Shown one piece after another: positions 7,056 through 19,228 of a stretch of DNA of 64,000 bases. Made by a program: the position numbers and the translations under genes. The stretch comes from Bacteroidales bacterium. GTDB lineage: Bacteria > Bacteroidota > Bacteroidia > Bacteroidales > UBA932. The DNA lies in the NCBI GenBank assembly GCA_015060225.1, contig SUYX01000007.1, positions 1 through 64,000 of the forward strand. The letters are read 5' to 3'. The notes beneath the pieces were generated by a model that worked only from the letters and a program-made list of their open reading frames with translations, was not told where the DNA came from and made no database searches. Every line of letters starts with the position of its first letter. Positions within the stretch are counted from its first letter, which is position 1.

Positions 7056-7766
7056 TTAAAATGTCCATTTTACGCCAAGGGCAGGCATTGCCTTGAACCC
7101 TTTCTCAACAAAATTTGAAGAGAGTTCCAGCTCACCGCCAACGCTCAGATTCACATCCTTCCACCCCTCAATCTTATTGAGATTAACCCAGAACTGAGGT
7201 TCTGCCAGGAAGATATATTCTGTATCCTGCCAAGGTCTTGCCTCTCTCCAGAAGTCTGCAAATCCGCTGAATGAACACCATCCGTCGGCGAAGGTTATTC
7301 CCCATACTCCGGTAATCTGGAAGTTGCTCTCCTGCTCCTCTCCATCCAGACCTATTGTATCCGGAATAAGTTTGTACATTGCAGAAAGAGACCAGGTTTT
7401 GCTGAAATCCTTTGAGTGGCCTGAATATGTAAGACCTGCAAGCCACGCATTGTTGAATGAACCTGCAACATTGTTCAATCCGCCATTGAACTCAAGGTGC
7501 AATGAGAGCCATGAGAGATTGCTCTCCTTCCAGAAACACAACTCCCTTGAAAGTTCCCAATATGCTCCGCTCACATTTGGAGTGTAGTCAAAATCTGCAA
7601 AGAAAAATGTGCTTCCCCAGGCATCAGGACGGAACATCTCTATTGTAGAAGTTACGCATTCGCGCTCTGTATCATACAGAACCTGTATGTTCTGAGCCTT
7701 TACCTCATTTGCAGAAACAGAACACAATACCATAATGGCAATACACAATACAAACAGTTTTTTCAT
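7056..7766 (-). CDS. DUF5020 family outer-membrane protein (Tsx-like barrel)
   Basis: Signal peptide; FFFADFDYTPNVSGAYWELSRELCFWK..LSLHLEFNGG; C-terminal aromatic residue. Confidence 0.75.
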   Translation of the reverse strand: MKKLFVLCIAIMVLCSVSANEVKAQNIQVLYDTERECVTSTIEMFRPDAWGSTFFFADFDYTPNVSGAYWELSRELCFWKESNLSWLSLHLEFNGGLNNVAGSFNNAWLAGLTYSGHSKDFSKTWSLSAMYKLIPDTIGLDGEEQESNFQITGVWGITFADGWCSFSGFADFWREARPWQDTEYIFLAEPQFWVNLNKIEGWKDVNLSVGGELELSSNFVEKGFKAMPALGVKWTF

Positions 7767-16872: not shown

Positions 16873-17514
16873 TTACACAAGTATATCATCAACTCCCATT
16901 TTAGGGACAAAATGTACTCCATCTTTACGGTAGTATGCCTGCGGCTCACCCAGTTTTATACGGGTCAACTGTATATTCTCCGCCCCTTTGCCTATAGCAA
17001 GTACCAGAACCGGCTCATGTTCAAGTGCAAATTCATTTACTGTCTCCACTTTATTGAAGGCACCAATACAGATACCGTTCAAACCAATTTCCACCGCCTT
17101 CAGGAGCATGCTCTGGGCTGCAATTCCCAAATCGATATCTACCCACTTGTTCTCCGCCACAGTAGAGCAGATGATTATGAATGCGGTAGGCTCAGTCCCC
17201 TTGAACGGCAGATTGAGTTCAGGCAATGCCCCGCCCCATTTTGTATATTGCTGCATCCGCGGAGCATCCTCACCGTAAACCAGTTTGAACCTCAATGCCT
17301 GCTGGTTCTTGGCACAAGGAATTTTTGTACACACCTCCACAATTTTGACCAACTCCTCCCTGCTCACCTTATAAGAATTGTCAAACCCCCTATAACTTCT
17401 GTTCCTGAGCAACAGAGAATCCAGACTTGGATTGCTGGCCGCCACTTTATGCTTTGTACCACCTTTCCTTGCTTGCAACTCCTCAAATTTTTTCTCCAAA
17501 TAATTGTCTGCCAT
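16873..17514 (-). CDS. Nitroreductase family protein
   Basis: RNRSYRGFD, IPCAKNQQALRFKLV, DLGIAAQSMLLKAVEIGLNGICIGAF. Confidence 0.85.
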   Translation of the reverse strand: MADNYLEKKFEELQARKGGTKHKVAASNPSLDSLLLRNRSYRGFDNSYKVSREELVKIVEVCTKIPCAKNQQALRFKLVYGEDAPRMQQYTKWGGALPELNLPFKGTEPTAFIIICSTVAENKWVDIDLGIAAQSMLLKAVEIGLNGICIGAFNKVETVNEFALEHEPVLVLAIGKGAENIQLTRIKLGEPQAYYRKDGVHFVPKMGVDDILV

Positions 17515-17529
17515 AACTGAATGTTTTTT

Positions 17530-17537
17530 CAAAGGTA
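17530..17537 (-). promoter_or_regulatory. -7 element TACCTTTG
   Basis: Reverse complement of caaaggta, immediately upstream of the nitroreductase start. Confidence 0.45.
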
Positions 17538-17550
17538 ATATTTTTTTTAT

Positions 17551-17673
17551 AACGTTGTCTTTTTGTACAATTCATTGTTTCACAATGAATTGCAAAAATC
17601 CCTCTCCTTCACAACGCAGGAGAGGGATTTTAAAAACACTGTAAATCAGTGTTTTATACAAAAAGACAACGTT
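17551..17673. repeat. Cloverleaf-like palindrome: 17-bp closing stem enclosing three perfect hairpins
   Basis: Closing stem 17551-17567/17657-17673; hairpins 17568-17578/17582-17592 (11 bp), 17595-17607/17619-17631 (13 bp), 17633-17641/17647-17655 (9 bp). Confidence 0.95.
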
Positions 17674-19228
17674 AAAAAGTAATACCTACAGTTAAACCGG
17701 TATAACTTCTGTTGTCAAATTCCGAACCTTTTGGAGCCCAATACTGGAACTGGGCTTTTATAAACAGAGATGTCAAATCTGAGACAAATGTAGAATAGGT
17801 GGCCTCAGCGCCAAACCTGTAGTAGTCAGACACAAGATACATGAAATCATTCCTGTACATGTTTGTAACAGTTTCTGAGGTTTCGTACGCACCTGTGTAG
17901 ATGTACTCACCTTCCAAATTGGAGTTGTAACCCAAATTCACACCTGCAAGAAGAGAACTCTTTTCACACAATTCAAAATTCTTCTTTGCATAAAGATTCC
18001 AGAAAAAGTTGTCTGCCTCAAGAGAAGATACCGGCAAAAGATATTTGTCTGACTGCTTGGAGTGTTTCATCTCCACACCTGCCATCCATGAATAGCCTGA
18101 ACCCTTCTTGGCATACATGTCATAACGGAGACTCAAATCCCTGAAGGAGTATTTGCTCCTCACATATTTTGCAAGGGTAACCCACTCTGCCACATCAAAA
18201 GATGAATCCAGTTCCTGAACATACTCAATACCTTCTGTCTTCCTGTCAAGAAAGGAGATAGCCAATTTCTTCATATAAACCTCACCATCATTGAGCAGCT
18301 GGACATCCACACCCCACAAATTCTGTTTGGTAGAACCCATATTCTGCTTTTTGGTTGGGGTCTGGAATGCATCCTCTACCTTGTATGAGTATTTCACATC
18401 CACAAGGGCAGAGAAATCATCATTATTGGTATAGCCGTACTGCAAACCACCGCCAATCCTGTTACCCTTATAGAAGAATGTACCCACTCCTACAGAACCT
18501 GAAACAACCCCCGAAGTATAGTTACCCAATCCTCTCATAATGAATACAGGGTAATCAACCTCCGTATCACTTCTGTTGAAAGTACTTCTCTCATACAGAT
18601 ACTCATAGTTGAAGGTAAGTCCCAAACTGCTTCTTCCCGACAATTCAAACAACAGTGAAGGGGCAGCTTTTACTGTGAGGTAATAAGTTACCGAACGGGG
18701 ATCCCTCTGTTTGGCACCTGTCTGGGTAGTATATTGCAAATCCATACCGGGAGTCACAAATCCCCACAACTGAGGAAATGCCGCCTTTACACCAAGGTCG
18801 TAAGACTGTTTCTTGAACTTGCTCATTACGGCATCAGCCACATAATAAGGCATATCCCTATGCGGATCATAAAGGTTTGTAATGAAACTTGCATCCTTCT
18901 CCACAATGTTCTTATAATCAAAGGTACCCCACAATTGGGTTTTGCCAACTGATGTTGCGCCATTGGTATTGAACCCTACTGTGTTCTCCTTTTCCCCATC
19001 TTGAGTAAGTTTAAAATCACCGGAAATCATTTCATAACCCAAACCTACAGTACTGTATTTGCTGAGCGGCATCACACTCATACCTGCAGCATTGTTACTG
19101 CTCCACCACAGGCTGCGGGCAAGGTTCATCTCTATCTGCGGTTCCCTCACAACCTCCTGCTGTTGGGCATAAACAGCTGAAGGAACGGACAAGCCAAATG
19201 CCATCAATAGTATATATAATCTTTTCAT
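17672..19228 (-). CDS. Outer-membrane beta-barrel protein (DUF6850-like)
   Basis: Signal peptide, alternating beta pattern, C-terminal GLTVGITF; sits beside DUF4876/TonB receptor genes. Confidence 0.65.
   Translation of the reverse strand: MKRLYILLMAFGLSVPSAVYAQQQEVVREPQIEMNLARSLWWSSNNAAGMSVMPLSKYSTVGLGYEMISGDFKLTQDGEKENTVGFNTNGATSVGKTQLWGTFDYKNIVEKDASFITNLYDPHRDMPYYVADAVMSKFKKQSYDLGVKAAFPQLWGFVTPGMDLQYTTQTGAKQRDPRSVTYYLTVKAAPSLLFELSGRSSLGLTFNYEYLYERSTFNRSDTEVDYPVFIMRGLGNYTSGVVSGSVGVGTFFYKGNRIGGGLQYGYTNNDDFSALVDVKYSYKVEDAFQTPTKKQNMGSTKQNLWGVDVQLLNDGEVYMKKLAISFLDRKTEGIEYVQELDSSFDVAEWVTLAKYVRSKYSFRDLSLRYDMYAKKGSGYSWMAGVEMKHSKQSDKYLLPVSSLEADNFFWNLYAKKNFELCEKSSLLAGVNLGYNSNLEGEYIYTGAYETSETVTNMYRNDFMYLVSDYYRFGAEATYSTFVSDLTSLFIKAQFQYWAPKGSEFDNRSYTGLTVGITF

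Follow-up and report, generated by a model that had tools for sequence, protein, structure and literature searches.

A palindromic element lies in the window (the whole 64,000-nucleotide stretch of DNA analysed here) between a gene for an outer-membrane barrel-like protein and a nitroreductase-like gene (Table 1). The initial annotation placed it over the barrel-gene stop codon and just before the nitroreductase -7 element, and both placements hold: the TTA at 17672-17674 ends the barrel ORF (17672-19228, minus strand), and TACCTTTG is found directly past the other end of the element. The consensus of the Bacteroidetes -7 box is TAnnTTTG. TACCTTTG fits it and is presumably a candidate -7 box.

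Table 1 Features of the element and its neighbouring genes in the window
Feature	Position	Strand	Description
Outer-membrane barrel-like ORF, 518 aa	17672..19228	-	3' end abuts element; orthologs in G024, G006
Nitroreductase-like ORF, 219 aa from TTG	16873..17532	-	Downstream; homologs align from ATG ~17514
TACCTTTG, candidate -7 box	17530..17537	-	Just outside element; sequence match
Family-defined element	17552..17672	.	121 nt, ACGTTGTCTTTTTGTA ... TACAAAAAGACAACGT; frame in 17 genome copies
Closing-stem left arm	17551..17567	+	Exact inverted complement of 17657-17673
Family arm within left arm	17552-17563		ACGT + TGTCTTTT (species-specific 8-mer), then TGTAC
Lateral hairpin 1	17568..17592	+	11 bp (17568-17578/17582-17592), 3-nt loop; fold, covariation
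Central hairpin	17595..17631	+	14 bp (17595-17608/17618-17631), 9-nt loop; fold, repeat I12, covariation
Lateral hairpin 2	17633..17655	+	9 bp (17633-17641/17647-17655), 5-nt loop; fold, covariation
Closing-stem right arm	17657..17673	+	Overlaps upstream gene's stop codon, TTA 17672-17674

The cloverleaf at the window locus

The arms of the 17-bp closing stem are exactly complementary, as had been claimed, and an extra T-A pair at 17550/17674 extends the stem to 18 bp. The helices are separated by 0-2 nt and the whole four-way cloverleaf is near-perfect. Its inner hairpins had been read as 11, 13 and 9 bp; the two lateral lengths were right, and the middle hairpin has 14 bp with a loop of 9. 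This central hairpin carries an A-tract at its 5' foot and a T-tract at its 3' foot, and is terminator-like on both strands. Folded as RNA, the cloverleaf reached a minimum free energy of -66 kcal/mol, compared with -19.4 ± 3.1 for dinucleotide shuffles (z -15.3, 0/200), and folded as DNA it gave z -14.5 against shuffles. These results indicate a fold far beyond chance. A simple terminator scan called no terminator at the element, and an Rfam search with it returned nothing at gathering score, only sub-threshold chance matches to long-hairpin models. The initial annotation had also proposed a competing fold from the complementarity between ACAACG in a loop and CGTTGT in the closing stem. The complementarity is real, but the motif occurs in 0 of the 61 other copies described below; the pairing, unique to the window copy among 62, is therefore probably a coincidence, and the competing fold is unsupported.

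In the sister species G024 an element occupies the same position, with arm CGCAATTA and an interior unrelated to that of the genome carrying the window, G000 (identity 0.59; background 0.61). The locus in G006 is empty, the barrel-gene stop adjoining the nitroreductase start; an empty site of this kind in a relative was what the initial annotation had proposed to look for. The nitroreductase locus with its element is present twice on G024 contig C24 (23613 and 67699), inverted and 44 kb apart, which is either a real duplication or a palindromic misassembly.

Copies, placement and arms of the repeat family

At E <= 10, blastn of the element against G000 gave 96 match segments, of which many fell within the same elements. 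The arms ACGTTGTCTTTTTGTA and TACAAAAAGACAACGT are identical across the G000 copies and their starts are separated by exactly 105 nt, or by 95 in a single copy; the 17 complete copies are nearly all exactly 121 nt long, and their interiors differ by locus. Thirty-nine genomes of the genus were compared by pattern. The exact pattern occurs in G000 (17 copies), G024 (2) and G008 (1), and allowing any inner 8-mer in the arm made five genomes positive (G000 17, G008 20, G024 12, G006 3, G022 2), while a reversed-pattern control gave about 0 matches. A looser script found 62 copies in the five genomes: 48 of 121 nt, five of 120, two of 122, six of 111 and one of 112, with no copies of other lengths between 100 and 140 nt. 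These counts are not independent events, since the copies share ancestry, and they come from draft MAGs of 84-89% completeness with genes called as longest ORFs; the relatives include Bacteroidales MAGs, one from yak cecum. A pattern search of 394 genomes of the order, G000 included, yielded two likely chance matches besides G000, and the viral contigs searched held no copy.

The inserted palindromic element suggested by the initial annotation is thus borne out, and it has many copies, 17 in G000 and 62 across five genomes; the contrary picture, with no second copy and a single conserved hairpin diverging gradually in relatives, was checked and did not appear. Mismatch-free stems, in contrast, proved to be no hallmark of the family: both lateral hairpins are perfect in 11 of 48 copies, and it is the arms that stay perfect. 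Mismatches affect 0 of 34 arms in intact doublets and 6 of 12 arms in singlets or enlarged copies (p 1e-4, small sample). In two enlarged copies of ~200 nt (L059:3715-3912 on G000 C62 and L064:7389-7589 on G000 C63) one palindrome sits inside another: their centre carries a further long inverted repeat, AAATACCTTTGAAAAC...GTTTTCAAAGGTATTT. A similar motif is present at G006 C173:10729. A lone half-element with a mismatch in its one arm (L074:100-170, G000 C51) lies directly behind a 5S rRNA-like sequence and its terminator. A different palindromic intergenic repeat, built around GGGACGTCGTCCC, occurs twice close together at L139 (G008 C36, near record position 104240), its first copy being GCCCATTGGGACGTCGTCCCAGTGGGC.

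Elements sit preferentially behind genes. Among 102 gene ends facing an element, 64 are 3' ends and 38 are 5' ends (p 0.007 relative to the intergenic background nearby). Fifteen stop codons share exactly 1 base with an element (T-N-A). Filled and empty orthologous sites are both seen among relatives, further empty sites being those compared with G000 C62:8879 (empty in G006) and G024 C62:43242 (empty in G000, G006 and G008). One locus has a plain hairpin terminator at the empty site in G008 and an element in G000 and G024. No target-site duplication was evident at the filled/empty pairs, whose flanks are strongly diverged. Where G000 has an element at C62:15484, G024 (L142, about 7421-7482, C62) holds AACGTAGATAACGTCAC, which resembles two element ends without the middle and could be an excision scar.

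The arms differ between species. All 34 arms in G000 have TGTCTTTT; those of G008 are mostly CGTCTTTT, those of G024 mostly CGCAATTT-like with some TGTCTTTT, those of G022 mostly TGTCCTTT and those of G006 TGTCTTCG-like. Eight loci shared by G000 and G024 have clearly orthologous interiors (identity 0.72-0.99; paralogs score about 0.61). The two genomes differ in both arms at five of them (C62:5488, 13770, 20553, 51854 and C20:46861), in the right arm alone at one, where the copy is half-switched (G024 C62:27431), and in neither arm at two. This comparison indicates that arms change together within a genome and interiors follow the locus. Simple copy-and-paste does not predict such a switch, which could arise by selection at each site from a changed RAYT or by conversion limited to the arms.

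The consensus common to both halves of the element is GTNACGTYGTCTTTTTGTACAA-N4-YTGATTATCAR-N4-TTANAAAA, followed by the central segment; this one half-site, present in two inverted copies, gives the closing stem its complementarity. The ends read GTNACGT...ACGTNAC, and the whole consensus is two-fold symmetric and duplex-like. At its foot the palindrome has GTAC in about 90% and GTAT in about 10%, not GTAG or GTGG, so we did not file the family under canonical GTAG REPs. Pairing was then compared with partner-shuffled controls in the 48 copies of 121 nt. It was 0.53/0.54 for the lateral hairpin cores (0.35-0.36 shuffled; z 5.9/7.0), 0.46 for the central segment (0.33 shuffled; z 6.3) and 0.367 for an alternative long hairpin (0.366 shuffled; z 0.0); relatedness between copies inflates these z values, and the contrast between clover and long hairpin uses the same copies. 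Covariation supports the clover fold over the long hairpin. Lateral hairpins, long-hairpin core and centre all fell below the pairing thresholds in 26 of the 48 copies, whose arms are still perfect or nearly so.

A RAYT transposase and two sister families

The initial annotation recommended a search for a RAYT/TnpA-like transposase in the same genome. One is present and adjoins copies: a 273-aa gene (G000:C62:49448-50269) is flanked by two elements at distances of 83 and 86 bp. The protein matches Pfam Y1_Tnp (PF01797) above gathering (E 5.7e-12), and its best NCBIfam match is NF047646, REP-associated tyrosine transposase, which at 52.5 bits (E 4.7e-14) does not reach the cutoff of 80. NHAH (H57-x-H59) and Y114-x3-N118 are invariant in this protein and three orthologs, and NHxH, Tyr and Asn are also kept in two more distant relatives (6 homologs in all). 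It has, within a Y1_Tnp domain, the HUH motif, catalytic Tyr and then Asn of RAYT/TnpAREP enzymes; the spacing of Y and N118 is that of Y and N119 in E. coli TnpAREP (PMC6006769). A PDB sequence search with the RAYT gave no match, and its AlphaFold model from a 4-row alignment was poor (pLDDT 52).

Orthologs with 60-67% identity occur in G000, G008, G024 and G006, exactly the genomes with at least three strict-pattern copies (co-occurrence with G022 as sole exception, Fisher p 6e-5). G022, a MAG 89% complete, has about six copies, yet no close RAYT ortholog was found in it. Between G000 and G024 the RAYT is 66-67% identical and the neighbouring genes are 96-98% identical. Relative to G000 (L061:9244-11974, C62), G008 and G024, G006 (L146:10149-12621, C153) has the segment bearing a PhoH-like gene and the RAYT in inverted orientation; elements lie at or close to the ends of this segment. 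The G024 gene is broken after codon 238 at TGTCCGGTAAAA (L151:7083-7931, C13), TTTTACCGGACA stands at the other contig end (L206, C62), and the gene is probably interrupted by an insertion sequence. A more distant RAYT of the same genus (L161, G034 C1:2186280) is flanked by short TTACGGCGTAATAACNGGTA-type repeats in a genome with at least four RAYTs.

The complete genome G263, from another genus of the same family, encodes two RAYTs 39% and 37% identical to that of G000, and each adjoins an inverted-arm repeat family of its own, an independent replication of the linkage. The GGCACTGATTTTTCTA family has 15 copies, of 107 nt (4) and 115-118 nt (11), and the GCGCAGTTTGAGGTA family has 4, of 115, 116, 125 and 125 nt. 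A search of G263 at shorter spacing added one 92-nt copy of the GGCACTGATTTTTCTA family, offset in phase by half a turn from the rest. With this one exception, lengths fall into two classes ~9-10 bp apart in each of the three families. Ortholog comparison suggests several separate shortenings in the main family, 9-10 nt each. We infer helical phasing of duplex-bound arms from the length classes, although loss of 5 bp from each side of the central stem would produce the same pattern.

Origin of the family and comparison with known systems

We consider it very probable that the cloverleaf is a copy of a non-autonomous REPIN-type element served by the cognate RAYT at G000:C62:49448-50269. As in REPINs, spacing is near-constant (55 of 62 copies measure 120-122 nt), the spacer is less conserved than the repeats and shows compensatory changes in the predicted fold, and the genome has a cognate RAYT whose gene is flanked by copies. 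Against this reading, the GTAC/GTAT foot is neither canonical nor common to the sister families. On the same side stand the 26 copies with poor pairing, the G022 copies with no close RAYT ortholog found, the sub-cutoff NCBIfam score, the poor AlphaFold model and the arm switch. The family appears to have been spread by the RAYT, a domesticated single-strand-DNA transposase. Two inverted REP-like half-units, each with an outer arm, a GTAY foot and a lateral hairpin, would surround the central hairpin and be recognised by the HUH/Y1 tyrosine transposase encoded elsewhere in the genome. As other RAYT/REP systems suggest, the enzyme would act on the clover-folded strand, a fold proposed for the transposable REPIN (PMC3116915), and cut at or just outside the arms; copies would then build up in extragenic DNA, chiefly directly behind stop codons. 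Marinomonas TnpAREP, given a GTAC foot, shifts its cleavage to GT or GA sites (PMC8266576), so the GTAC foot of the present family would fit a cut at the GT (-2/-1) of GTNACGT, the element edge, with GTAC as guide. Once inserted, the central hairpin may serve as a bidirectional terminator or boundary. Mobilisation by the RAYT, its activity, its binding to arms, the cut site and the terminator effect are what we infer.

In a more specific version, the C-terminal helix-turn-helix-like tail of the RAYT would hold the outer arms as duplex DNA, helically phased, and a change in RAYT specificity would lead to arms being rewritten singly across the genome while interiors stay fixed; this is possible and still doubtful. 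Such a phased two-arm complex would make element lengths cluster about 10 bp apart, and the rewriting would be an arm-dialect switch undescribed for REP systems.

It is unlikely that the elements serve a host chromosome-organising or regulatory protein as binding sites, with the RAYT neighbourhood incidental or domesticated. The symmetric duplex-like consensus, old copies with perfect arms, arm dialects that shift together as with a trans-acting binder, lengths ~10 bp apart and clustering of copies on C62 would suit such a protein, but the family is confined to a few species of one genus (two likely chance matches in 393 other genomes of the order), and RAYT linkage recurs for two further families in another genus. 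An ordinary cis-acting terminator or boundary, a structured gene-end RNA selected in place and immobile, could explain the 3'-end preference (64/102, p 0.007), the 15 stop codons overlapping by 1 nt and the plain terminator that G008 has in place of the element. This account is distinctly improbable given that identical 16-bp arms enclose unrelated interiors genome-wide, that relatives have empty sites and that the sister families beside related transposases have wholly different arms; a well-paired central hairpin is also absent from most copies at the threshold used.

Terminal inverted repeats, a non-coding extragenic nature and a size of about 120 bp are also what a MITE of a classical (DDE) transposase would show. 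The gene flanked by copies is HUH/Y1 rather than DDE, however, old orthologous insertions keep perfect arms, and a target-site duplication is not evident in filled/empty comparisons with their diverged flanks, which leaves a MITE very improbable. We regard a site-specific recombination site, either an invertible promoter or integron attC-like, as extremely improbable: inverted arms, an attC-like position behind stop codons and the one G006 inversion with elements at or near its borders are in its favour, whereas there is no cassette array, an orthologous C28/C36 copy (interior 0.99) keeps its orientation, and the ends GTNACGT...ACGTNAC misfit attC GTTRRRY / RYYYAAC.

ERIC, Correia/NEMIS and YPAL elements measure roughly 100-170 bp. 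Like the present family they are imperfect palindromes near gene ends, but they are grouped as MITEs (PMC3733652), whereas this family is linked to a Y1/HUH enzyme. The REPIN was described by Bertels and Rainey (2011) in Pseudomonas fluorescens SBW25 as a REP doublet forming a hairpin (PMC3116915). It shares inverted conserved 16-mers, fixed spacing, a variable spacer with compensatory changes, extragenic location, RAYT linkage and doublets better conserved than singlets, and hairpin and clover folds were contrasted there as well (PMC3116915). In the present family, by contrast, the conserved 16-mer lies outside the lateral hairpins and makes the 17-bp closing stem, the foot is GTAY, copies number about 20 instead of hundreds, the host is a member of Bacteroidales, sister species switch arms and keep interiors, and there are two length classes 10 bp apart. 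TIRtrons (TIRYT and TIR dimers; Di Nocera et al. 2013) likewise have a RAYT-like gene between long inverted repeats unrelated to GTAG REPs, and form moderately abundant repeat families, some of dimers (PMC3733652); the present family differs in lacking the GGGGWSAS motif, in its species-specific arms and in its doublet with lateral hairpins. REP-type repeats often follow genes; the stop codon itself can come from a GTAG REP (PMC3733652). Among the TnpAREP subclasses of Quentin et al. (2018), 2.1, 2.4 and 2.6 have similar NH[x]H and YIxxNP-type motifs, 2.1 carries an HTH-like tail and no REP-like repeats found by those authors, and 2.6, mostly from Bacteroidetes, has atypical flanking structures that recur within the genome (PMC6006769). 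The RAYT here (~270 aa, NHAH and YILxNP) matches no single subclass signature.

A literature search, mostly without subscription papers, brought up no paper that treats Bacteroidales REPINs and none combining RAYT with helical phasing. REPINs (PMC3116915), TIRtrons (PMC3733652) and Bacteroidetes TnpAREP subclasses (PMC6006769) are already known; the concerted arm change between species with locus-specific interiors and the ~10-bp length classes in three families with three RAYTs look new. The family accounts for perfect gene-end palindromes in Bacteroidales that could otherwise be mistaken for terminators or RNAs. Bacteria have few domesticated transposase systems, and RAYTs with their repeats are one of them; shared loci with common interiors and differing arms, a half-switched copy and three RAYTs with three arm families that follow a similar length rule make the coevolution that keeps enzyme and repeat population matched directly testable here.
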